The notes below the pieces were generated by a model, which did no database searches, was not told the DNA's origin, and was given only the letters and a program-made list of their open reading frames with translations. DNA of 64,000 bases, from NCBI GenBank assembly GCA_024331125.1, contig JANDJI010000004.1:248001-312000 (forward strand). The letters run 5' to 3'. This DNA comes from Nitrospira sp. (GTDB lineage: Bacteria > Nitrospirota > Nitrospiria > Nitrospirales > Nitrospiraceae). Each line of letters opens with the position of its first letter. Positions within the stretch are counted from its first letter, which is position 1. Below, piece by piece: positions 35,103-53,005 of this stretch. The position numbers and the translations under genes were made by a program.

Positions 35103-35257
35103 CTTCGTTTACCGGCCCAGACAAAGCATTGCAGGCAAGTGATCGGGAGCGCGTTTCGACCATCGCCGGTACGTTTCTCAGTCCCCGCCACGGCGACGTC
35201 GATCACTATAACCGACCGGTTCACTCGACACAACGACGGCGATGCGAGCCGTTCTCC

Positions 35258-35286
35258 TTGACACCTCTCCTCCTTTCCGATACTAG
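35258..35286 (+). promoter_or_regulatory. Candidate promoter of the LpoA-like gene
   Basis: Perfect TTGACA at 35258, a 17-base spacer, then TACTAG (3/6); an alternative -10 is GATACT at 15 bases. It is 40 bases before the ATG at 35327. Confidence 0.35.
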
Positions 35287-35326
35287 TCACTCGTTGCGGC
35301 ACACCTCCGATCGCCGCGCCAACGCT

Positions 35327-37294
35327 ATGCTTCCCCACAGAATCACTCCCGACCAATCCTCCGCCGCGCGCCGCATGGTCGGCGTCGTTCTGCTTGCCGG
35401 GCTCCTGCTCACGGTTCCGGGGCTCGGCGTCGCGGCCAACAATCCACCGCCCAATACCCCGTCGCCATTGCCGACGGTGTTGAGGCAGGCGAAACAGCTC
35501 ATTGAGAAGGGCGATCCCGAAGCGGCCGCGACGGCGCTTCAGCAATTTCTGGCTACGTCACCGCGTGCCGACTATCTTGACGACGCCTATCTGCTGTTGG
35601 GCGCCGCCCACTATGAGGCGAAGAATTTTCCCGACGCCCTCAAGTATCTGAACGTGCTGCACCAGCAGTTTCCCGAATCCGAAGTCCATGAACGGGGGCA
35701 GCTTTTGCTGGCCCGTACCCACGCGGCCATGGGCAATCCCGATCTCGCACTCCCACTGCTGGCCCAAGTTCGTACCCTGACGCAGGACGAGGGGACCAAA
35801 CGGGAGGCGATGAAACTGACCGCGGACGTCTTCATCCAAAAAAGGGATTTCGTGCGAGCCATTCGCACGTTGTTGGACGGGCTGGAAGGCAGTTCGGACC
35901 AAGAGGCTGCAAACCTTCGCGAGCAGGTGCGCGCGCTCCTGACGGAGCAACTCGACCGAAAAGGACTCCTGCGCGTGCGCCAAGCATTCCCTCGTGCCTA
36001 TCCGGGCGATCTCGCTTCCATTCGCCTCATCAACGATTACATCGCGCACGGAGAAGACCACCTGGCTGAACGGGAAAGCCGACACTTTCTCGTCGCGTTT
36101 CCGGATCACCCTCAAGCCTCCGCCGTCCGAGACTCGTTGACCCAGGTCAGCGCGAGACTCAGAGCCAATCAGTATCTTGTCGCCGCCGTGCTGCCGCTCT
36201 CCGGCAATCTTAGCCCGTTCGCCAATGAAGTCCTGGAAGGCATTCAGCTTGCCTTGGATCAGGCAAAGACTCAGGGGGATCTGCCGTCCATCGGCTTACT
36301 CGTCAAGGACCAGGATGCGGATCACCACGGGTTTCTTGACGACCTTTCGACGTTGCTGGCCTACGATCGCCCTCTCGCGGTCATCGGTCCCCTATTGTCG
36401 AAAAACCTTCCGGCCATGGCCGAAATGGCGCAAAGGCACCGCGTGCCGCTGATTACGCCGACCGCCACCCTGCCGAACGTCCGCCGGCTGAGCGGCTACC
36501 TCTTCAGTACGGCCTTGACCTATCAGATGCAGGCCGAGCGCATTGCCACCTACGCCGTCAAAGGCCAAGGTTACCGTCGTTTTTGCGTTTTCCACCCCGA
36601 TACGGTCTATGGGCGAGAGCTGGCCAGGCTGTTCGTACAGGAGATCCGGCGTTACGACGGAGAGATTATTGCCATCCGATCCTATAAAGAGGGGGACACG
36701 GATTTCGGTCCGCAGATTACCGCCCTGAAAGAGGAGGATCTAAAGAAGTACGGGCTCGCTCTGCCCATTGACGTGTTACAACCCGGCGGCAAGGCTTCCA
36801 ACCGAAACAGCAAACGTCTGCTGTACACACCCGGATTCGATGCGATTTTCATTCCCAGTCGATCCAGTGACGTCGGCTTGATCGCCGCCCAACTGGCCTT
36901 CCATGACATCCACGTTCCGCTCCTTGGGGCAAATGGATGGAACTCTCCCGACTTCGTCCGCGTCGCGGACCGTACCGTCGAAGGCGCCGTCTTTGTCGAC
37001 GGGTTTTTCGCCGACAGTCCCCATCCGAACGTGAGGGATTTCGTCGAGAGCTATCAAAAACGTACACAAACGTTCCCGTCGCTCTTTGTCGCGCAGGGTT
37101 ACGACGCGGCTCGCGTGGTCATCGAAGGGATCCGGCACGGCGCCACCTCCGGCGAATCGCTTCGGGATTTTTTGACGACTCAGCGGAGCCTGCCGACCCT
37201 GGCCGGCCCCGCCGGTTTCGGCCCCGACGGCACTCTCCATCGATCGCTCTTTCTTCTCCAGGTAAAACAAGGTAAATTCGTGCAGATAGAATAG
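35327..37294 (+). CDS. TPR plus periplasmic-binding fold protein (LpoA/PBP-activator-like)
   Basis: Protein of 655 residues. After a signal peptide (hydrophobic ARRMVGVVLLAGLLLTVPG) come about 250 residues of TPR-like repeats (YLLLGAAHYEAKNFPDALKYL). A type I periplasmic-binding fold follows (residues about 285-655, VAAVLPLSGNLSPFANEVLEGIQLAL, FCVFHPDTVYGRELARLF). The combination is like LpoA, the outer-membrane activator of PBP1A, and like penicillin-binding-protein activator family proteins. No lipobox cysteine is seen, so it is likely periplasmic. No strong ribosome-binding site precedes ATG 35327. The gene ends 112 bases before the protease gene. Confidence 0.8.
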   Translation: MLPHRITPDQSSAARRMVGVVLLAGLLLTVPGLGVAANNPPPNTPSPLPTVLRQAKQLIEKGDPEAAATALQQFLATSPRADYLDDAYLLLGAAHYEAKNFPDALKYLNVLHQQFPESEVHERGQLLLARTHAAMGNPDLALPLLAQVRTLTQDEGTKREAMKLTADVFIQKRDFVRAIRTLLDGLEGSSDQEAANLREQVRALLTEQLDRKGLLRVRQAFPRAYPGDLASIRLINDYIAHGEDHLAERESRHFLVAFPDHPQASAVRDSLTQVSARLRANQYLVAAVLPLSGNLSPFANEVLEGIQLALDQAKTQGDLPSIGLLVKDQDADHHGFLDDLSTLLAYDRPLAVIGPLLSKNLPAMAEMAQRHRVPLITPTATLPNVRRLSGYLFSTALTYQMQAERIATYAVKGQGYRRFCVFHPDTVYGRELARLFVQEIRRYDGEIIAIRSYKEGDTDFGPQITALKEEDLKKYGLALPIDVLQPGGKASNRNSKRLLYTPGFDAIFIPSRSSDVGLIAAQLAFHDIHVPLLGANGWNSPDFVRVADRTVEGAVFVDGFFADSPHPNVRDFVESYQKRTQTFPSLFVAQGYDAARVVIEGIRHGATSGESLRDFLTTQRSLPTLAGPAGFGPDGTLHRSLFLLQVKQGKFVQIE

Positions 37295-39663: not shown

Positions 39664-40022
39664 CGATATTGCGCCCCCTCGTTCCTCGAAACGGGCTTGT
39701 TCGGGAAATCCCTTGTCGCAGACTGACTCTCGTTTCGGCCATACGGCGATCCGCCTGATCCACCAGACTCATGCCACGGCCGCTCCGTAACCCCATCCGG
39801 TGATGTCATCCCACATGGCAACATCTCTCCTCTCACCCCCGGTAAAAACTAACCAGACGGCAACGTAATCTGTATCACTTTGTCCCAAATCGTATCCTTT
39901 CGTGTACCGCCCTGTATCACATTGCGGCAAACTACGGTAAACTACGCAACACGCACAGGTCTTGCAGCATAAATTACGGGGAAAACCGATACATGACAAG
40001 CCACTGAAACCATCTCGGACAA
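39664..40022. other. Intergenic stretch of about 360 bases
   Basis: No supported gene. A 90-codon minus-strand frame is present but has no convincing protein character. The stretch holds the phased repeats described separately (39870-39946) and must contain the promoter of the receiver-to-kinase genes, which I could not pin down. Confidence 0.5.
39870..39946. promoter_or_regulatory. Phased direct repeats upstream of the receiver gene
   Basis: CTGTATCAC occurs at 39870 and again at 39912, 42 bases apart (four helical turns). A looser GTATC between them (39892) gives spacings of 20 and 22. Immediately downstream, AAACTACG occurs at 39929 and 39939, exactly 10 bases apart. All lie 77-153 bases before the first gene of the sensory operon. 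The pattern fits an array of binding sites for a regulator. Confidence 0.45.
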
Positions 40023-40421
40023 ATGGACGGCGGACGATCACAACACATCCTCGTAGTCGATGATGACCCCGACATTCGACAAATCCTGCAAGATCGCCTG
40101 GAGTCTTATGGCTATCTCGTTGACACGGCAGCGGATGGACCGACCGCCCTCGAAAAGTTGAACCGCCTCGCTCCTCGTGGCGTGTTTCTGGATATTCGCA
40201 TGCCCGGCATGGACGGAATCGAGGTGTTACGGCGGATCAAAGCCCGAGACCGCTCGACGGCGGTCATCATTGTGACCGCCGTAAGCGACGAGGACGCGGC
40301 ACCGTCGCCGACCAGGAAAGCGGCTCATGCCTATCTGCTCAAGCCGTTTGACTTGCCGAAACTCAAGCACATCGTCGAACAATGTTTCGAACGGCGGACG
40401 GAATCGGAGTCCGTTCTGTGA
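40023..40421 (+). CDS. Single-domain response regulator (receiver)
   Basis: Receiver protein of 132 residues: DDD acidic cluster (ILVVDDDPDIRQ), phosphoacceptor Asp in GVFLDIRMPGMDG, Thr in IVTAVS and Lys in YLLKPF. No output domain. It should be phosphorylated by a kinase, most simply the one encoded three genes downstream. Its stop overlaps the GTG start of the TonB-dependent receptor gene (GTGA). Confidence 0.9.
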   Translation: MDGGRSQHILVVDDDPDIRQILQDRLESYGYLVDTAADGPTALEKLNRLAPRGVFLDIRMPGMDGIEVLRRIKARDRSTAVIIVTAVSDEDAAPSPTRKAAHAYLLKPFDLPKLKHIVEQCFERRTESESVL

Positions 40422-42418
40422 GAATCACGCTCCGTGCCATCATCACCGTGAGCTTCCTTGCGCTGTCCCTGACCTCGATTCTCATTTCAGCCCGCGCGGA
40501 ATCGACGGAGACGGACCATGGCTCCTCGGACGTCTTCTCGCTGCTTAAAGAAGAGTCCGTCAGCACCGCTTTGCGCCGGGAACAACCGATTTCCCAAGCT
40601 CCCTCCAACGTGTATGTAATCACCGCCGAGGACATCCGCCATTCCGGCGCCGTGGACGTGCCGACCCTCTTACGGCGAATTCCCGGCATCGAGATCATGC
40701 AGGTGACCGGAGCGGAGTTCAACGTCAGCGTGCGTGGCAACAACCAATTGTTCGCCAACAAGCTGCTCGTCTTGGTCGACGGTCGTTCCGTCTACATCGA
40801 CGTGCAGGGCTTTGTCTTCTGGAAAGGCCTTCCGATCACCCTTCCCGAAATCAAGCAAATCGAGGTCATCAAGGGTCCCATCGCCGCGCTGTACGGTTTT
40901 AACGCCTACGACGGCGTCGTCAACATCATCACGAAAACGCCGGACGAGATGAAAGGCGCCACGTTGCAAGTGGGAGGAGGAGAAATCGGAACCGTGTCCA
41001 CTTCGGCGATTCACGCAGGGGTCACCGGCAAGTTCAGATACCGCGTTTCCGGCGGCTATGACCAGACCCATCAATGGCGGGATCGAGACGCCCCGGCCGC
41101 TCGCTCCTCCAAATTTAATACCCTAGTCGAGTATCAGATGCCGGACCAGTCGAGAGCCTCGTTATCCAGTGGTCTCGTCCACATGAATCCTCACGACGGT
41201 CCCCTGGTGGGAGTTGGAAACACGGTTCTGACGCCGGAGGTCACTTTGCCCTACGTCAATCTTTCATATGACCGTCAGGATTTCCTTTTTCGCGCCTATT
41301 GGAACGGATTTTTCGCCGATGCCGCGGCGTTTCCCCACCCTCTCTTGCAACGATTCATTACGATCACGGACCCGAGCGGACATTCGAATCTGGGGTTTGC
41401 GGGCAACACCTACAACATTGAAGGACAACACTCCCTTCAAATCGGTGACGTCGGTCGCCTCACCTACGGGCTGAACTACCGCTATAACACGTTTTCCTGC
41501 GACTGTACCTCCTCCTTCGGGCAAGAACATCGTCTTGGCGCCTATGTACAAGGCGAATGGTCCGTATTCCCCTCCGTAACCGTCATCGGAGGGCTCCGCT
41601 ACGACCTCCATTCGGAGATCAACCCCACATACAGTCCACGCCTGGCCGTTTTATACACGCCGGTTCCCGGCCACACGCTTCGCGCTCAAGCGTCCGTCGG
41701 CTACCGACCTCCGACCTTATTTGAAACGTATCAAGACGTGCGTTTGAATCCCCTCGTTCCCAATCCCTTCCTCCCCACCTCAAGTCGAATACTGGGATCA
41801 AGAAACCTTCACCCGGAAGAAATTCTCTCCTATGAGCTTGGCTATCAAGGATGGTTCTACCGCCACCGCCTTCGACTCAGAGCCGACGCGTTTTTCAATC
41901 GCTCTTCCGACTTGATCGGCCGCTCGTCAACCAGCGCCGTCACCAACACCGTGAACACAGGAAGCACGGAAATCTACGGCGGAGAGGCGGGCCTTGAGTT
42001 TCAAGCGTCTTCATGGTTGACCGGTTTTGCCAATTACTCATACCAACATATCAAGAAAAACACCGAGGGATTGGCTCGACGAGGCGCGCCTCATTCCAAA
42101 GTCAATGTCGGTCTGCGGGCGGAATGGTTCAACGGCTTAAGCGGCGAAGCCATCCTGCACTACGTGGGACCGGCGACATATCCGGTATCCGACTCATTCG
42201 ATATTTTCAACGTGTCACCGGGCACCCGCGTGCGCGGGTACACGCTTCTCAATCTCCGGGCAGGATACCGATTCTGGGAACAGGACACGGCGATCGGGCC
42301 AAGACGCTCAGCGGAGTTTGCCGTTTCGGCGTTCAACATGCTGGATGACCATCGGGAGCATCCCCTGGGCGACCTCATCGGACGGCGCGTGATGGCGTGG
42401 TTGACGCTCAAGCTCTGA
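40418..42418 (+). CDS. TonB-dependent receptor
   Basis: Outer-membrane protein of 666 residues. The GTG start at 40418 overlaps the receiver stop by 4 bases. A signal peptide (hydrophobic TVSFLALSLTSILISARA) is followed by a plug domain (VYVITAEDIRHSGAVDVPTL, LRRIPGIEI, VRGNNQ) and a barrel ending with an aromatic-rich strand. The N-terminal TonB box is not obvious. A siderophore or similar ligand cannot be read off. It sits with a kinase and a soluble substrate-binding protein instead of a transport set, so its role may be sensory. Confidence 0.87.
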   Translation: MRITLRAIITVSFLALSLTSILISARAESTETDHGSSDVFSLLKEESVSTALRREQPISQAPSNVYVITAEDIRHSGAVDVPTLLRRIPGIEIMQVTGAEFNVSVRGNNQLFANKLLVLVDGRSVYIDVQGFVFWKGLPITLPEIKQIEVIKGPIAALYGFNAYDGVVNIITKTPDEMKGATLQVGGGEIGTVSTSAIHAGVTGKFRYRVSGGYDQTHQWRDRDAPAARSSKFNTLVEYQMPDQSRASLSSGLVHMNPHDGPLVGVGNTVLTPEVTLPYVNLSYDRQDFLFRAYWNGFFADAAAFPHPLLQRFITITDPSGHSNLGFAGNTYNIEGQHSLQIGDVGRLTYGLNYRYNTFSCDCTSSFGQEHRLGAYVQGEWSVFPSVTVIGGLRYDLHSEINPTYSPRLAVLYTPVPGHTLRAQASVGYRPPTLFETYQDVRLNPLVPNPFLPTSSRILGSRNLHPEEILSYELGYQGWFYRHRLRLRADAFFNRSSDLIGRSSTSAVTNTVNTGSTEIYGGEAGLEFQASSWLTGFANYSYQHIKKNTEGLARRGAPHSKVNVGLRAEWFNGLSGEAILHYVGPATYPVSDSFDIFNVSPGTRVRGYTLLNLRAGYRFWEQDTAIGPRRSAEFAVSAFNMLDDHREHPLGDLIGRRVMAWLTLKL

Positions 42419-42450
42419 CGGCATGGCGTGACGAACTCCGGCGACCACCC

Positions 42451-43473
42451 ATGAACAATAAGAGGCCGTTCATAACCGTCTTGTCTTCGGCCGCTTTTCT
42501 CCCTTTGAACGCCATCAGCCCGCTCAATGGGAGACAGCGGTTTCTCTGTGTTTCATCCCCGCTCCTCATAAGTTTCCTGGCATGCCTGTCGGCCGTGTTG
42601 AACCTTGCGTTGCCGGTTGCACCGCTCGGCGCCTACGAGGTCGCCATTCTCAAATCGGCCAATGTCACAGCCTACAATCAAGCAGTCATCGGCTTTAAGT
42701 CCTCGATGCCGCCGGATACCGTCTTTGTTGAGTACGACCTCAAAGGCGATCCAAACATGGGACGGATGTACGCCGGCAAGATACGCGCCTCCGGCGCGGA
42801 TCTCGTGTTGGCGGTCGGTTCGAAGGCGGCAACGGCGGCCCGCCTCGAAATCCTGGACATTCCAGTCATCTACAGCATGGTGCTCCATCCGGCCAAGTAC
42901 GACCTCAAGGCTCCGAACATGGTCGGTGTCACCACCAAACCGATGATCGGGCAGCAGTTGGGCACCCTCCGCACGATCATGCCGAATCTGAAACGGATCG
43001 GTTACCTGTACGATCCGAACAAGACGCCCTTGCCGGCTGAGACGATGACTCAGGCTCGGCAGTTTGGGATTACATTCGTCGAACGTCAGGTGCGATCAAC
43101 GGAAGAAGTCCCTCCGGCCCTGCGAGAGCTTCTTCCTGACGTCGATGCGCTGTGGCTCCTCTCCGACAGCACGGTGTTGACCGAAGAGTCGTTCTCGTTT
43201 CTTTTGCGCGCGGCCTTCGACCGACGCATCCCGGTTATCGGATTTGATCCGGAATTCTCCCGCCGCGGCGCCTTGATCAGTTTCTGGATCGATCCGGCCG
43301 ACATCGGGCGAGAGGCGGCCTCCATCGCCCACACCATTCTCATCGGCGGAACGGCGTCGGCCGCGAAATCCTTCGTGCCACGGCAACGGATGGCCTTGAA
43401 TCTCGGCACCGCCGAATATCTCGGCATTGCGATCCCGCCGACGGTGCAGAGCATGGCTGACGAGGTGTACTGA
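42451..43473 (+). CDS. ABC-type substrate-binding protein (PF04392-like)
   Basis: Protein of 340 residues. A long N-terminal region with a hydrophobic segment ([20 protein letters not shown]) precedes [22 protein letters not shown]. The fold then has the two-lobe periplasmic-binding layout of the ABC_sub_bind group ([54 protein letters not shown]). No ABC permease or ATPase is nearby. Its TGA overlaps the kinase start by one base. ATG 42451 was chosen; an upstream GTG at 42397 overlaps the receptor. Confidence 0.8.
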
Positions 43474-45152
43474 TGACGGCGACGAACGACTCCGACGAAA
43501 ACCGCCATCGTCCGGAAGGTCTCGGACTCAGGACGAAATTCGTGTTGTTCATCAGTTTGGTTATTATCGCGGTTTGTTCGGGCTTAAGCCTCTACTTCAT
43601 CCGGCAACAATCCGATTCGATGGCCCGCGCGTTGACCGGCACGGGGAGCCTTCTGGTGAAAAATCTGGCCCATAACAGCCGCTACGGCCTCGTCGCCAAA
43701 GACCTGGTGCTGCTCGAACAGCTGATGAAGGGAGTCATGGACGTGGATGAAAGCGTCTATGTCATCTTCACAGGGCCGGACGGCAAGCGATTGGCCGAGA
43801 AAAGCAAATCGAACGTGTATCCGGACCCCGCCATCGCCCAATCGCTGATCCGCTCTAACACGAACGATGTCACGATCACACCGTTTACGGCGGACCACGG
43901 CCGACGACGCGAACGCCTTTATGATTTTGCCGTCACAATCCGCCGGGGAAACGACATCGAATCCCCCTTCTTTTCTTTCGAGTCGGAAGAGTCTCACGAC
44001 GAGCCTTCGACGGCGCGACTCCAACCCCGCATTTACGGCATCGTTCAGGTCGGCCTGACGGGAGAGCGGATGAATCAGGCGCTGGATACCTTGATCGGCA
44101 ACGTCATAATCATCACGATCATGGTGATCCTGGGGGGTATCGCGGCCGCGATGTTGTTGACCCGCCGGATCACCACTCCCCTCAAAAGCCTCGTCTCGGT
44201 CGCCCGACGAATAGCCGGCGGCGATTTGACCGCCTCGGTGAAACCGACGACTCGCGACGAGGTCGGGCAACTCACGCTGGTCTTCAGTCAAATGACCGAG
44301 GCCTTGCGCGAACGGGACGCCCAAGTCAAACAGGCGTATCAGGAACTGGAGCAGCTCAATGAGACGCTCGAACAACGAGTCCGTCAGCGAACCAGCGAGC
44401 TCCAAGCCGCCAATGAAAAATTAAAAGAACTGGACCACCTCAAATCGACCTTCGTCTCGGTCGTGTCGCACGAGCTTCGCACGCCGATGACGTCGATCAA
44501 GGGCTACGTCGAAAACCTACTCGACGGGTTGGCCGGCGCACTCACGGAGAAACAAACTCGCTCCCTCGAACGGGTCAAGCACAATATCGATCGGCTGACG
44601 CGGATGATCAACGAGCTGCTGGATCTCTCGAAAATAGAAGCCGGACGGTTGGAATTGCACCTCGCGCCGATCGACCTCGTAGACCTCGTGGAGGACGTCG
44701 TGGAAAACTATCGGGCCACAGCCCGCCAGAAGTCCATCATGCTGCGCGCCGTCCTGCACGCCCCTTTGCCGATGGTTCGGGCGGATACCGACAAGCTCCA
44801 TCGCGTCCTGATCAATTTGGTTCACAACGCGATCAAGTTCACGCCCGAAGGAGGAGAAATCCTTGTGGAAGTCGGAACGCAAGGCGATGATTTCGTCGAA
44901 GTGACCGTGATCGACAGCGGCAACGGCATTCCCCCGGACGAGCTGGACAAAATTTTCGACAAGTTTTATTGGAGCAAATCGGCCCCCGTTGAAGCCCGCG
45001 GCGCCGGGCTGGGGTTGGCTATCGCCAAGAATCTGATCGAGCTTCACGGCGGCTTCATTCGGGTGGAGAGCGTCCTCGGAAAAGGCAGCCGTTTTTCCTT
45101 TACAATCCCTGTGGCAAGACTTTTTTCTCATGGGTTGGATTCCGAGTCGTAA
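43473..45152 (+). CDS. Membrane sensor histidine kinase
   Basis: Protein of 559 residues. Membrane helix at about 22-44, a periplasmic sensor region (45-205) with no recognised motif, a second helix (about 209-229), HAMP (230-282), coiled coil (283-320), HisKA with H333 ([16 protein letters not shown]), and an ATPase domain with N-box [21 protein letters not shown] and [10 protein letters not shown]. It starts at the A shared with the substrate-binding protein's TGA. The probable partner regulator is the receiver gene at 40023. Confidence 0.93.
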
Positions 45153-45289: not shown

Positions 45290-48200
45290 ATGGTGTTCGC
45301 CCAAAGCTCTTCTTCCCAATCTTTTGATCGCATGTCCCACGCCACCGCCCATCCCTTGCGCGGCCTCTTGATCGCCCAGTTCTTCGGAGCGTTCAACGAC
45401 AACGCATGGAAACTGATGGTGGCGCTCCTGGCTATCAGACAGGCGACCGCCTCCCTTCAGCCGGGCCCCGACTACGAAACCGCCGTGCAGACCCAGACGG
45501 CGATCACGTTCGTCATGTTTACGCTCCCGCTCGTTCTGTTCTCGCTCGTCGGCGGCACGTTGGCCGATCGCCTGAGCAAGCGCACGGTCATCATCGCCCT
45601 GAAAGCTGTCGAAGTGCTCTTGATGGCAGCCGGCGCCTTCGTCCTGTGGCGGGACCCCTCCGGCTGGCTGTTGCCGTTGATCGTCCTCTGCGGCATGGGC
45701 GCGCAGAGCGCTCTCTTCAGTCCGTCGAAGTACGGCATTCTTCCGGAGCTGGTCCCCCACGAACGGCTCGCCGCCGCCAACGGCCTGTTGGAGATGTGGA
45801 CCTTTGCCGCCATCTTGACCGGAACGGCGGCCGGCGGCTTCTTGTTGCAAGCGGCGGGAAACGAGCCCTGGTCGGCGGCGACGGTTCTCATCGCTCTCTC
45901 GATCGTCGGGTTGGTCGCGTCTTTTCAGATTGCGCCGGTGGCGCCGGCTCGCTCCGAGGGCGGCGTCGCGGCAACGGTCCGCGCGGCCCTGGCCTCGATC
46001 CGCGCCGAGCGTCTATTACGACTGACCATCGCCGGCGAGATCTTCTTTTGGACCATCGCCAGTCTCTTCGCTCAGAACGTGCTCGTCTACGCCAAGGCCG
46101 TGCTGCTCCTATCGGACGACCGATCCGGCTTGCCGCTCACCATGTTATCGATCGGAATCGGCGTCGGCGCCGTCCTCGTCGGCCGGCTCTCGAAAAATCG
46201 AATCGAATACGGTCTGATCCCGATGGGGGCTGCGGGCGTCTTCCTCGTCCTCGCCTTGCTCGGTCTATCGACCCCGCAACTTGCCGGAACCTTCATCCTC
46301 ATGGGCTTCCTCGGCGTGGCCAGTTCCTTCATCTTCGTACCGTTGAACGCCATCCTTCAGTGGAAATCGCCGCCGGATCGGCGCGGCGCCGTCATCTCAT
46401 TCTCCAACACCTGCGTCTTCGCCGGCATCCTGCTGGGTTCGCTGACCGGCGGCGCGCTGGCCAACGCGGGCTTCTCCACGAGCGGAATTTTTCTCGCCAC
46501 CGCCGCCGTGACATTGGGCGGAACGGTGTGGGCCTTCCGGCTGTTGCCGGACCTCGTCATCCGACTCGTGTTGGTCATCTTGACCAACAGTCTGTACCGG
46601 GTTCGAATTGTTGGGCAGCACCATGTGCCGCAAACCGGCGGGGCGCTGTTGGTCCCCAATCACATGTCGTTCGTGGACGGATTTTTACTGATGGCCAGCA
46701 TCGACCGGCCGATTCGGTTCGTCGTGGACACGGCCTACGCCGCTCATCCGTTCTTCAAACGGCTCATGACCATCATGAACGTGATTCCCATTTCATCGTC
46801 CGGGGGTCTCCGGATGATTCTTCGGGCGCTGCGCGCCGCCGGCGAAGCCCTCGAGAACGGCGAGTTGGTCTGTATCTTTCCGGAAGGGCAGATCACCCGC
46901 ACCGGCACCTTGCTCCCGTTCAGACGGGGATTCGAGCGCATTGTCAAGGGCCGAACGGTTCCAATCATTCCCGTCCATCTGGACCGCATTTGGGGAAGCA
47001 TCTTCAGTTTCAGCGGCGGGCGGTTCGTGTGGAAACGGCCGGAACGCATTCCCTATCCGGTCACCCTGTCGTTCGGCGCGCCGCACCCCTCGACCACGCC
47101 GGCCCATGAGGTCCGTCGGCTGATTCGAGAACTGGGCGAAGCGGCCTGGCACCTTCGCAAAACGGATCAAGAACCGCTGCATCGGCCGGTCCTGCGCACC
47201 TGGCGCCGCCGCCCCTTGGGTCTCGCCATGGCGGATGCGGCGCGCCCGCGCGTCACCGGCTTCAAGGCCCTGGTCGGCATGATCTCGCTGGCGCGGGCCT
47301 TGAAACCTCACTGGAACGGGCAGCCTCGCGTGGGCCTTTTGTTGCCGCCCAGCGTGCCGGGCGCGTTGGTCAACATCGCGGCGTCGGTCGCGGGCAAGAC
47401 CAGCATCAATCTCAATTACACGGTGGGCCGGGCCGGGCTCGAATCGGCCGTCAAACAAGCCTCGCTCAAAACCGTGCTGACCAGCCGCCTGTTCGTGGAG
47501 AAGGCGAAACTTGAACTTCCGACCGGCGTGACCATTCTCTGGCTGGAAGATCTCGCCAAGGGAATCGGCGCGGCCCAGAAACTGACGGCGTTGTGTCTGG
47601 CCCTCGCGGCTCCGCTGCGGTTTGTCGAAGCGGCCTGCGGTCGAGAACGCAAGATCTCGATGGACGATCTCGCCACGATCATCTTCAGCAGCGGCAGCAC
47701 GGGCGAGCCCAAAGGCGTGATGTTGTCCCATTTCAGCATCACGTCCAACGTCGAGGGCGCCGCGCAAGTCATCCACATCGACAAACATGACCGAGCGTTG
47801 GGCATTCTCCCCTTCTTCCATTCGTTCGGCTACCTGCTGCTCTGGCTCTTGACGAGGAACGGCGCCGGTATCGTGTTTCACCCCTCCCCGCTGGACGTGA
47901 CGGCCATCGGCGAACTGTGCGCTCGGTATCGGGTCACGTTGCTGATCGCGACGCCGACCTTCCTGCAACTGTACCTTCGCCGCTGCACACCCGAACAGTT
48001 CGGCGGTCTGCGGGTCGTTTTGACCGGAGCGGAAAAGCTGCCGCTTCGCCTGGTCGATGCTTTTCAAGCCAAATTCGGGATCACCCCGGTCGAAGGGTAC
48101 GGCGTCACGGAATGTTCGCCGGTGATTTCAGCGAATTGCCCGGACTACCGCGCCGCGGGTTTTTATCAAGTGGCGTCGCGGCGAGGCACCGTCGGCCAGC

Positions 48201-48757
48201 CCCTTCCCGGCGTCTCCGTTCGAATCGTCGATCCGGACACGTGGGAACTCCTCTCGCCGGGCCAACCTGGCCTGTTGCTCGTCAAGGGCCCGAACGTCAT
48301 GCAGGGGTACCTCGGCCGCGAGGACCTGACCGCTCAGGTCATACGCGACGGCTGGTATATCACGGGCGACATCGCTTCGCTCGATGACGACGGCTTCTTG
48401 ACGATCACCGACCGGCTGTCTCGCTTTTCGAAGATCGGCGGTGAGATGGTCCCGCACGGGCGCGTCGAAGAGGCCCTGCACCAGGCCATCGGCGCCGAGG
48501 TGCAGGTCTTTGCCGTGACCGGCATCCCGGACGAGAAAAAGGGAGAGAAATTGGCGGTCCTTCACACCCTCGACGAGCATCTCATCCCGGGCGTACTGGA
48601 GAAACTGTCGGCCGGCGGATTTCCCAACCTGTTCATTCCCGGCAAGCACGACTTCATCAAGGTCGATGCCTTGCCGGTTCTCGGAACGGGAAAACTTGAC
48701 CTGCGCGGCGTAAAACGGATCGCCATGGAACGGCTCGGCTCGAAGCACTCGGCCTAA
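45290..48757 (+). CDS. Fused MFS (LplT), acyltransferase (PlsC) and acyl-ACP synthetase (Aas)
   Basis: Protein of 1155 residues in three parts. (1) MFS transporter, residues about 20-430, LplT-like, with QFFGAFNDNAWKLMV. (2) PlsC acyltransferase, about 440-640, with the HX4D motif NHMSFVDG and FPEGQITRTG. (3) AMP-binding synthetase, about 650-1150, with IIFSSGSTGEPKGV, YGVTECSP, GWYITGD and KGEKLAVL. The set takes up lysophospholipid and reacylates it, as E. coli LplT plus Aas do in two proteins. ATG 45290 is given; 45332 is possible. It lies 137 bases after the kinase and may be separate. Confidence 0.93.
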   Translation: MVFAQSSSSQSFDRMSHATAHPLRGLLIAQFFGAFNDNAWKLMVALLAIRQATASLQPGPDYETAVQTQTAITFVMFTLPLVLFSLVGGTLADRLSKRTVIIALKAVEVLLMAAGAFVLWRDPSGWLLPLIVLCGMGAQSALFSPSKYGILPELVPHERLAAANGLLEMWTFAAILTGTAAGGFLLQAAGNEPWSAATVLIALSIVGLVASFQIAPVAPARSEGGVAATVRAALASIRAERLLRLTIAGEIFFWTIASLFAQNVLVYAKAVLLLSDDRSGLPLTMLSIGIGVGAVLVGRLSKNRIEYGLIPMGAAGVFLVLALLGLSTPQLAGTFILMGFLGVASSFIFVPLNAILQWKSPPDRRGAVISFSNTCVFAGILLGSLTGGALANAGFSTSGIFLATAAVTLGGTVWAFRLLPDLVIRLVLVILTNSLYRVRIVGQHHVPQTGGALLVPNHMSFVDGFLLMASIDRPIRFVVDTAYAAHPFFKRLMTIMNVIPISSSGGLRMILRALRAAGEALENGELVCIFPEGQITRTGTLLPFRRGFERIVKGRTVPIIPVHLDRIWGSIFSFSGGRFVWKRPERIPYPVTLSFGAPHPSTTPAHEVRRLIRELGEAAWHLRKTDQEPLHRPVLRTWRRRPLGLAMADAARPRVTGFKALVGMISLARALKPHWNGQPRVGLLLPPSVPGALVNIAASVAGKTSINLNYTVGRAGLESAVKQASLKTVLTSRLFVEKAKLELPTGVTILWLEDLAKGIGAAQKLTALCLALAAPLRFVEAACGRERKISMDDLATIIFSSGSTGEPKGVMLSHFSITSNVEGAAQVIHIDKHDRALGILPFFHSFGYLLLWLLTRNGAGIVFHPSPLDVTAIGELCARYRVTLLIATPTFLQLYLRRCTPEQFGGLRVVLTGAEKLPLRLVDAFQAKFGITPVEGYGVTECSPVISANCPDYRAAGFYQVASRRGTVGQPLPGVSVRIVDPDTWELLSPGQPGLLLVKGPNVMQGYLGREDLTAQVIRDGWYITGDIASLDDDGFLTITDRLSRFSKIGGEMVPHGRVEEALHQAIGAEVQVFAVTGIPDEKKGEKLAVLHTLDEHLIPGVLEKLSAGGFPNLFIPGKHDFIKVDALPVLGTGKLDLRGVKRIAMERLGSKHSA

Positions 48758-50143: not shown

Positions 50144-52681
50144 TCAATCGACCATCTGCCGCACCACCGCGAGCAGTTGCTCGCGCGTAAACGGCTTCGC
50201 TAGTGTGCCCGCAGCCCCCGCTTGCCGGGCCCGATTGAGAAGAAATTCCGGCGTTGCACCGATCCCACCACCGGACACAGCAAGAATTTTCAACGCAGGC
50301 CGGACACGCCGCACCTCCTGAATGACCTCGATGCCGTCCATGCCCGGCAGTAGTATATCGGTGATCAGCAAATCGATGGATTGTTGTCGCAATAACTCAA
50401 GCCCCTCGACTCCGCTTATCGCTGTCAACACTTCATACCGTTCACTCCTGAGGATCTCCTGGACCAGAGAATTGACTTGCCCGTCATCGTCAAGAACCAG
50501 GACGCGCTTTGGCATACGAGATACCCTGTTCTGGGATAAGTGTCCGACTGGCTGGTCCAGCACCCGTCTGACGGCTGCCAACAACGCTCCATTCGTAAAA
50601 GGCTTCGACAATACTTCGCCAGTGGCCGACAACTCGCCGCCCATGACCGTTCCCGTCGCCGTTCCGCCGGTGATAAAGAGAACCTTCAGATTGGGCATCC
50701 GAGATCTTAAACTCCGTACCATCAGCACCCCATCCGTGTTTGGCATCATGACATCGGCTATGAGCAGATGAATAACCCCATTATAACTCAGCGCAACATG
50801 GATGCCTTCACTGCCATCGCTGGCCGTAAGCACGTGGTATCCCTCGTTTTCCAACATCGTTTTTACGATTTCCTGCACCGCAGGATCGTCCTCAACAAGG
50901 AGCACTGTCTCCCCGCCACCCTGAACCGGCACATGGAAGACGGACGGAGGTATCTGCTCCTCCTGTTCCGCCAAGGGAAGCAACAGCGTGAAGGTGGTGC
51001 CAACTCCGACCTTGCTCGCCACTTGAATGGTCCCATCATTTTCCGTGACGATGCGGTAGACTGTCGCCAGTCCAAGACCAGTTCCTCTCCCCGTCGATTT
51101 CGTGGTGAAAAATGGCTCGAAAATGTGGTCCAGCGTGGTCTGATCCATTCCGACTCCCGAGTCGCTGACCCTAATGACAACGGACTGTCCGATGCGTTTC
51201 CGCGTTCGCTTCTCTTCCTCTCCCGCTTGATCATGAATCGCAGTGCAAATTTCCAGCCTCCCACCGGTCGGCATGGCATCTCGCGCGTTCACGACCAAGT
51301 TGAGCAAAGCCTGCTCGATCCCGCCTCCATCAACCTTCGCAGGAAGTCGTTTCTCCGTCAGATCAAAGCACAATACAATATTCTCCGTGAGCAATTGACG
51401 GAAGAACGGTTCGATTCCTCGAACAAGATCGTTGATATCGACCACTTGCCGTTCAACCGGTTGTTTGCGCGCGAACGCGAGCAACTGCCCGGTTAAGACC
51501 ATCGCGCGATCCACCGCCTTTTTGATCTCTTGAATTTTTGTGCGAGCCGGTGTCGGTAAATCGGCGTGAAGAAGAACCAACTCGCCGTATCCTTGCATGA
51601 TCGTCAGCAGATTGTTGAAATCATGGGCTACTCCGGCCGCCAAGTAGCCAAGCAGCTCCATTCTTTGCCCCTGTCGTCTCTGGATTTCGAGTGCTCGGCG
51701 CTCCGTGCAATCCACAAAACTCACGACTGCACCCGCCACCCGCTCCCACTCATCCCGAAATGTCGCCACGGTGCACATAACGGGAAATGACGTGCCGTCC
51801 TTTCTCCACAGGATTTCGTTTTCCAGGTGGCACTCTCGTTGACTGTGCAAGGCCTGCATAATCGGGCACTCCGCTTCGGGAAACGATGTCCCGTCTTCCC
51901 GCGTATGATGAATCAGCGCATGCACATTCCTGCCGATAAGCTCGTCCTGAGCATACCCGAGGGCCTCAACACATGCTCTATTGGCGAACATGCACGCGCC
52001 GGTCAAATCAATTCCCAAAATGCCCTCTTGAACGGAATCAAGCACCGCCCGATCCCTTCGTTGCGCAACCTTGATTTCTTCGATCAAGCTCGCGGTTTCA
52101 ATCGCCATCCCCGCTTGAAACGCCAGCGCCATGATCAACTGTTCATCCACGTCGGTAAATTCGGCTGCGCGAGAGACTGACACATCCGTCATGGATTCAT
52201 CGAGTCCCGGACGTACCTTGTCGGTCAAGTAGAGTCGCCCGAATACTTTCCCGTGTGCGCGAATGGCTGTGCCAAGAAACGATCGCATCACAGGGTGGTG
52301 AGGCGGAAAACCGACCGACGCCTTATGCTGGCTCACATCTTTGAGCCGCAACGTGCGCTCATCTTTGATGAGCGCACCCAGCAATCCTCGACCGGTCGGC
52401 CACGCCCCGATTGCCCGCTTCGTCTCTTCGTCGATTCCTTCGGTCAAGAATTGCACCAGCCGCTCTCCGGTCTCATCAAACACGCCCAACGCGGCATAGC
52501 GGGCACCGGTCAGCACTTTTGCTGTCCGAAGAATTCCCTGCAAAAGAGCCGGAAGAGATGCCTTGCCCTCCTGAATGTTCTGGCCACTTTCATTCAGCAT
52601 GGCCAGTTGCTTGAGATACTGCCGCACCTCTCCGGCCTGTGTGGCAAAAAGACGTGCAATGTCAGCCGTGGCGTGCTGCAT
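50144..52681 (-). CDS. Hybrid sensor histidine kinase with GAF, PAS and two receivers
   Basis: Protein of 845 residues, apparently soluble. An N-terminal helix, a GAF domain (about 40-205) with the pattern GFPPHHPVMRSFLG and VFGRLYLTDK like DosS/DosT GAF-A, a PAS domain (about 208-335), a HisKA with H353 (GVAHDFNN), an ATPase domain (GIEQALLNLVVNARDAM, GTGLGLATVY), and two receiver domains (LLVEDD... about 600-725; LVLDDD... about 730-845, each with Asp and Lys). ATG 52681 has GGGAGG upstream. No membrane helix is visible. A cytoplasmic gas or redox sensor is a reasonable guess. Confidence 0.9.
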   Translation of the reverse strand: MQHATADIARLFATQAGEVRQYLKQLAMLNESGQNIQEGKASLPALLQGILRTAKVLTGARYAALGVFDETGERLVQFLTEGIDEETKRAIGAWPTGRGLLGALIKDERTLRLKDVSQHKASVGFPPHHPVMRSFLGTAIRAHGKVFGRLYLTDKVRPGLDESMTDVSVSRAAEFTDVDEQLIMALAFQAGMAIETASLIEEIKVAQRRDRAVLDSVQEGILGIDLTGACMFANRACVEALGYAQDELIGRNVHALIHHTREDGTSFPEAECPIMQALHSQRECHLENEILWRKDGTSFPVMCTVATFRDEWERVAGAVVSFVDCTERRALEIQRRQGQRMELLGYLAAGVAHDFNNLLTIMQGYGELVLLHADLPTPARTKIQEIKKAVDRAMVLTGQLLAFARKQPVERQVVDINDLVRGIEPFFRQLLTENIVLCFDLTEKRLPAKVDGGGIEQALLNLVVNARDAMPTGGRLEICTAIHDQAGEEEKRTRKRIGQSVVIRVSDSGVGMDQTTLDHIFEPFFTTKSTGRGTGLGLATVYRIVTENDGTIQVASKVGVGTTFTLLLPLAEQEEQIPPSVFHVPVQGGGETVLLVEDDPAVQEIVKTMLENEGYHVLTASDGSEGIHVALSYNGVIHLLIADVMMPNTDGVLMVRSLRSRMPNLKVLFITGGTATGTVMGGELSATGEVLSKPFTNGALLAAVRRVLDQPVGHLSQNRVSRMPKRVLVLDDDGQVNSLVQEILRSERYEVLTAISGVEGLELLRQQSIDLLITDILLPGMDGIEVIQEVRRVRPALKILAVSGGGIGATPEFLLNRARQAGAAGTLAKPFTREQLLAVVRQMVD

Positions 52682-53005
52682 GACGAGCAAAACCTCCCTA
52701 TCAGTTGTAGTAACTAAGCATCAGAACCGCTTTGCCTGACTCCTCAGCATTCCAGAGACATTACCGGGATATCGCCAAAACGCGGGGGAGTATACACATT
52801 GTGTTATGTGGGTCGATAGAGTGGCATCCCTGTGTAATTTGCGTACTTTTACCCGCCCCAAAGATTTGACGCACAAGAAAACGGCTCTGAGCAGCATGGA
52901 GATTCACTTATGTTAAGCAGTTCCTCCTAAACGCCGAGAGGGCCGTTCCCTTAACGGGAACGGCCCTCTCGAAGAATCCACACGGGAAACGTTGGGCGGC
53001 GCGGC
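52682..53005. other. Intergenic stretch with a 16-bp hairpin
   Basis: About 325 bases. The main feature is the hairpin at 52935-52971. The rest (52700-52930) should hold the promoter of the hybrid kinase but shows no clear -35/-10 pair and no gene. Confidence 0.5.
52935..52971 (-). terminator. 16-bp inverted repeat after the HhH lipoprotein gene
   Basis: Perfect 16-bp stem (CGAGAGGGCCGTTCCC) with a TTAAC loop, 35 bases after the stop of the minus-strand gene at 53006. No clear T run follows on either strand, so it may be a rho-independent terminator of weak type or a transcript-stabilising hairpin. Confidence 0.6.

Follow-up and report, generated by a model that had tools for sequence, protein, structure and literature searches.

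A transporter-less TonB-dependent receptor, PF04392 binding protein and histidine kinase module in Nitrospira as a candidate sensing relay

Introduction

Only about 10 pairs of a periplasmic binding protein (SBP) and a sensor kinase have been characterised (PMC9602780). In LuxP-LuxQ, TorT-TorS, BctC-BctE and XylFII-LytS, the periplasmic SBP acts on the extracytoplasmic sensor of the kinase, as we propose for the Nitrospira module described here. The module differs from LuxPQ-type systems in that its SBP is of the PF04392 family, a TonB-dependent receptor (TBDR) is included, and the outputs of sister loci include sigma-54 activators. By analogy, the best reading is that it works like LuxPQ or BctCE, its membership of this class hinging on contact between the SBP and the kinase.

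Three further systems share single components with the module. The aromatic amino-acid ABC importers of the TrpXYZ and CD0873 type have an SBP of the same family and fold, but the module contains neither permease nor ATPase. TonB-dependent signalling is understood mostly through the contact of FecA-type receptors with an anti-sigma factor. In FecA-FecR-FecI a TBDR is coupled to signalling, as in the module, whose TBDR has no STN domain and whose signal would instead pass through the SBP and the kinase. Finally, in Rhizobium plasmids a PF04392 SBP gene overlaps the gene of a signalling receptor, likewise with no permease; there, an adenylate/guanylate cyclase takes the place of the kinase, and a TBDR is absent. 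We observed this pair in the Rhizobium indicum plasmid pPR13E02 (L108:5710-8488), and it recurs in other Rhizobium plasmids.

Our full-text literature searches, with most subscription journals outside their scope, found no published description of a TBDR-SBP-kinase arrangement. We rate the kind of system as known, an SBP-triggered sensor kinase, and the arrangement as a new variation on it.

Results

Organisation of the operon

The window analysed here, 64,000 nucleotides long, lies on contig 4 of a genome (G000; 2.95 Mb) that belongs to the Nitrospira family. Open reading frame and Pfam analysis identified four genes in the order receiver, TBDR, SBP and kinase, as a previous sequence-only reading had described them, and found no ABC permease or ATPase in the operon or adjoining it, again in agreement with that reading:

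40023..40421, + strand: single-domain response regulator receiver, 132 aa (PF00072 2.9e-29, entire protein)
40418..42418, + strand: TBDR, 666 aa, GTG start (plug and beta-barrel Pfam matches)
42451..43473, + strand: PF04392 periplasmic binding protein (SBP), 340 aa (PF04392 7.6e-32)
43473..45152, + strand: sensor histidine kinase, 559 aa, comprising TM helix, single Cache domain, TM helix, HAMP, HisKA and HATPase (Pfam; the Cache domain assigned from relatives and fold)

The same reading held all four genes to be translationally coupled. The two overlaps on which it relied are present: the receiver stop and the TBDR start (GTG 40418) both lie in a GTGA, with a Shine-Dalgarno-like GGAG just 5' of the start, and the A of a TGATG is common to the SBP and kinase genes. 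At the third junction, the TBDR stop is separated by a 32-bp gap from the likelier SBP start, ATG 42451, so that coupling of all four genes was a slight overstatement; use of the alternative GTG 42397 would give a 22-bp overlap. The overlaps are not due to chance, since 12 of 13 orthologues retain the 4-nt receiver/TBDR overlap (GTGA or ATGA) and the six closest ones the TGATG junction.

No Pfam match to an STN signalling domain was found on the TBDR, where about 20 aa lie between the signal peptide and the plug region. Among the models shown, the TBDR reached no NCBIfam cut-off. We rejected an assignment of the ligand from the receptor family, as the best matches (the TOL_0244 family model and models for B12, heme and siderophore receptors) all scored far below cut-off.

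Several neighbouring genes deserve mention. Upstream, at 35129-37294 (+), TPR repeats are fused to a Peripla_BP_6/LppC-like domain, and no transporter gene was seen beside it. An Aas-like fusion of MFS transporter, acyltransferase and AMP-binding domains (1155 aa) is located at 45290-48757 (+), and lies directly 3' of the module in close relatives. A GAF-PAS hybrid histidine kinase with two C-terminal receivers is found 5 kb downstream of the module, at 50144-52690 (-). We considered the latter as a partner of the module and dropped it, as no locus evidence links the two.

Conservation of the gene set

SBP homologues were found in 109 of the 147 family genomes and in 211 of the 346 genomes sampled from the phylum, and about 110 SBP loci with flanking sequence were compared. 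Ninety module loci, 65 from the family and 25 from elsewhere in the phylum, were picked by their similarity to the window SBP, while weaker homologues (L138-L151) formed a mixed set. The sequence-only reading had proposed a search for the gene order in other genomes; the full order was kept in 12 of 12 close-clade orthologous loci with enough sequence, and in one more that is split across two contigs. On inspection, a kinase gene directly follows the SBP gene in 65/65 loci of the family and 25/25 outside it (automatic scoring gave 89/90, with 24/25 outside the family, the exception, L133, being an ORF-start artefact). A TBDR is encoded within 4.5 kb of the SBP in 69/90 module loci, and a receiver protein within 6.5 kb, also in 69/90. 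The remaining 21 loci show no TBDR in the available stretch, some because they lie at contig ends and some through genuine absence, and we thus regard SBP and kinase as the core of the module and the TBDR as a frequent partner.

The surroundings of the operon are less constant. A trpS neighbourhood is common to seven close-clade loci, while a search for trpS next to the operon of more distant members gave no match; the four genes therefore stay together while their surroundings change. Since the window genome contains 25 HisKA matches, five TBDR plugs and a single PF04392 protein, the repeated adjacency is far above chance. The module spans different families and classes of the phylum and is conserved in most Nitrospiraceae examined. 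It is hardly credible that the genes are chance neighbours or form an operon of unrelated functions, a view in favour of which we found nothing, that this conservation opposes and that the 90 loci refute for SBP and kinase.

A second class of SBP, about 28% identical, was also observed (L086, L092-L101). It is accompanied by a separate class of TBDR and in many cases by hybrid kinases, and likewise shows the TBDR-SBP-kinase order.

The binding protein and the missing transporter

The AlphaFold2 model of the SBP has a mean pLDDT of 93.7, and its best PDB matches, 3lft, 3lkv and 6hni/6hnj (CD0873), are SBPs with bound Trp, Phe and Tyr. In this family the amino acid is contacted by T108, A127, T129, D152 and N233 in Streptococcus suis TrpX numbering (PMC9382623; structures in PMC6816091). 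The corresponding positions of the window SBP read S-M-L-T-S, so that 0/5 are kept, and module SBPs in general have largely hydrophobic residues, or others that fail to match, at these sites. Most ABC-linked homologues, by contrast, keep TATDN or a close variant, the four compared showing TATDN, TASDN, TGSDT and TLTTV. The mapping relies on an alignment at about 25% identity, in which single positions may be off, while the ABC-linked homologues align as expected. Because the contact residues are not kept in module SBPs, a free amino acid would be an unlikely ligand. The departure from the TrpXYZ importers extends to the score against the TrpX equivalog model NF041285 (79 bits against a cut-off of 390).

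To search for the transporter, we used proteins of true PF04392 transporters (L109, L111) as queries. A permease or ATPase in orthologous loci was the finding that the sequence-only reading had named as contradicting it; a TrpY-type permease (PF02653) was found in 0/90 module loci. The same queries recovered the SBP-permease-ATPase order in three plasmids (L109-L111) and in L150, which belongs to a different PF04392 subfamily in the same bacterial family and served as an internal positive control. At the genome level, 11 of 40 genomes with the module have no PF02653 match; G012, G030 and G061, each a single contig, are among them. The other genomes nearly always encode the permease as two neighbouring genes, far away from the SBP.

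These results bear on the view that the SBP serves uptake through an unlinked or unrecognised permease, the two-component system merely regulating this uptake. In favour of this view, the window genome encodes a pair of PF02653 proteins at another site (C7:31934-33842), and its completeness is just 89%. Yet the pair consists of two adjacent frames (566 and 396 aa) of the branched-chain amino acid/urea transporter type rather than a single frame of the TrpY type, module SBPs have no PF02653 match in their vicinity, none is found in single-contig genomes bearing the SBP, and the pocket residues differ from those of transporter SBPs. We consider an uptake system quite improbable.

The kinase and its sensor

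The kinase has TM helices at residues ~24-42 and ~212-230, with about 170 residues between them. No Pfam sensor-domain match was found in this periplasmic part of the window kinase, whereas its relatives match sCache_4 and sCache_3 in the sensor region. The closest folds to the sensor model, whose mean pLDDT is only 65, are the periplasmic domains of WalK, CitA and LuxQ, the last a kinase under the control of a binding protein. From the matches of its relatives and the modelled fold, the sensor is predicted to be a single Cache domain between two TM helices. The sCache_4 domain is also that of BarA-type kinases; BarA is a hybrid kinase for which no SBP partner is known. Some members of the module show later changes to the kinase, with GAF or hybrid REC-REC-Hpt domains.

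We then compared evolutionary distances among the proteins of the module. SBP distances correlate with those of the kinase sensor at r=0.95, with those of the kinase core at 0.75 and with those of the TBDR at r=0.86. The partial correlation with the SBP is 0.88 for the sensor given the core and 0.22 for the core given the sensor. The divergence of the SBP thus tracks the sensor better than the core, as a docking partner predicts; co-inheritance and kinase domain insertions contribute to the correlation between SBP and sensor distances.

The Cache domain might also sense a small ligand directly; the SBP would then not carry the signal but only buffer, scavenge or compete for this ligand, or tune the kinase. 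Direct ligand binding is frequent among Cache domains, and single Cache domains like that of CitA, among the closest folds here, work in this way. But the SBP is always encoded next to the kinase and co-diverges with its sensor, a tight linkage that would not be required of a mere scavenger, and we regard direct sensing as rather unlikely.

The linkage of SBP and kinase, the lack of a TrpY-type permease, the lost contact residues and the divergence that tracks the sensor together lead us to infer, with good support, that the module senses rather than takes up what the TBDR brings in. This agrees with the sequence-only reading, which had proposed transport-coupled sensing in place of uptake.

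Output regulators and the upstream region

The receiver is intact, with the phosphoacceptor Asp and the conserved Lys, and its gene comes first in the operon in all orthologues. Sister loci often encode two regulators: a REC-PAS protein, made up of a receiver and PAS repeats, before the SBP, and, close to the kinase, a sigma-54 activator of the NtrC type. In a receiver tree, the window receiver groups weakly (83/33) with the REC-PAS receivers of sister loci and not with those of the NtrC clade. This position suggests that it is the reduced form of the REC-PAS regulator.

The window operon has no gene for an NtrC-type activator, nor any DNA-binding domain. Among the 16 full sigma-54 activators of the window genome, the product of G000:C7:5921-7501, comprising receiver, AAA+ and Fis HTH domains, belongs to the NtrC clade of the module and is unlinked to the operon. 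Of the 27 NtrCs near sister kinases, 24 have it as their best match (47-60% identity in all but one of them), and it falls among the module NtrCs in the receiver tree (93/90). A homologue was found in 18 of 18 genomes tested, located away from the closest module operon. About 2 kb from the C7 NtrC gene, contig 7 also encodes a dCache-PAS hybrid kinase with two receivers (L222:569-3766, the NtrC gene being at L222:5918-7501).

Two elements were identified upstream of the receiver gene:

39870..39931, + strand: tandem GTATC array of three ~21-bp repeats, proposed activator binding sites (kept in orthologues)
39951..39966, + strand: sigma-54-like -24/-12 element ACGCACAGGTCTTGCA (3 mismatches to TGGCACG-N4-TTGCA, weak alone)

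In the array, the repeats CTGTATCACTTTGTCCCAAA and CTGTATCACATTGCGGCAAA are 42 bp apart, with CGTATCCTTTCGTGTACC between them. The triple pattern occurs once in the window genome, and a GTATC pair or triplet is present in every orthologue with upstream sequence. In the second element, GCAC-N5-TTGCA is largely kept in divergent orthologues, the GG of the -24/-12 pattern GG-N10-GC reading CG in the window. Both elements recur in orthologues although most of the upstream region has diverged. Sister loci display the tandem dyad GTATC-N6-GATAC-N5-GTATC-N6-GATAC, followed in several of them, ~95-117 bp past the dyads, by a sigma-54 site with one mismatch. GTATC clusters in module loci numbered 38, against 2.6 expected from Markov resampling. 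Scans for sigma-70 promoters and terminators gave no more matches than in shuffled sequence.

We dropped the idea that the GTATC site is private to the module, as the genes beside other sites are mostly not those of a TBDR, SBP or kinase. The tandem dyad is found in 106 of 147 genomes, with up to 14 per genome and 0 in the reversed control, and thus appears to serve a larger regulon. In family genomes (L057-L063, L188-L221), tandem GTATC-N6-GATAC dyads also precede several unrelated genes, such as those of a ShlB-type POTRA protein (L196) and an M48 peptidase (L194), which points to a sigma-54 regulon in Nitrospiraceae that reaches beyond the module. The C7 NtrC may bind the GTATC array of the operon, the link between them being circumstantial.

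The sequence-only reading had taken the single-domain receiver as the output. It could indeed be the only one, acting by protein contact in the manner of CheY or DivK, or as a phosphate sink, and the intact receiver at the head of every orthologous operon and the lack of a DNA-binding domain are in line with this. Against it stand the conserved activator-type upstream elements, an NtrC protein grouping with those of the module and the frequent presence of two regulators in sister loci. A receiver-only output is, in our judgement, unlikely, and the earlier account of the output probably incomplete.

Discussion

Our preferred reading is a sensing relay that runs from the TBDR through the SBP and the Cache kinase to the receiver and an unlinked NtrC, to which, as a whole, we assign a probability of roughly 0.6. 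The TBDR would carry a substrate too large or too scarce for porins across the outer membrane, and the PF04392 SBP, with no permease to serve, would capture it in the periplasm. The loaded SBP would then dock on the single Cache domain and switch the activity of the kinase, which would phosphorylate both the single-domain receiver of the operon and the unlinked NtrC-type sigma-54 activator. By binding the GTATC array, this activator would drive the operon in a positive feedback, an arm that we hold with less confidence than the relay itself. Within the relay, we infer the passage of the ligand, the SBP-kinase contact, the phosphotransfer, and the identity and site of the activator.

More tentatively, the module could be a dedicated relay from the outer membrane to the kinase that is widespread in Nitrospirota. 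Its orphan SBP, having lost amino-acid binding and permease docking, would hand the Cache kinase a ligand that is hydrophobic or complexed, and sigma-54 feedback would run through GTATC dyads. Such a relay would be an alternative to FecA/FecR signalling that is based on an SBP. We regard this general form as possible but doubtful.

If the relay operates as proposed, a transporter-less TBDR-SBP-kinase module would provide a second route from outer-membrane transport to a signal. The Nitrospiraceae are central to nitrification and the environmental signals to which they respond are poorly known. The module would give a concrete handle on these signals, with the TBDR, the SBP, the kinase, the NtrC protein and the DNA site as a defined set for a ligand search.
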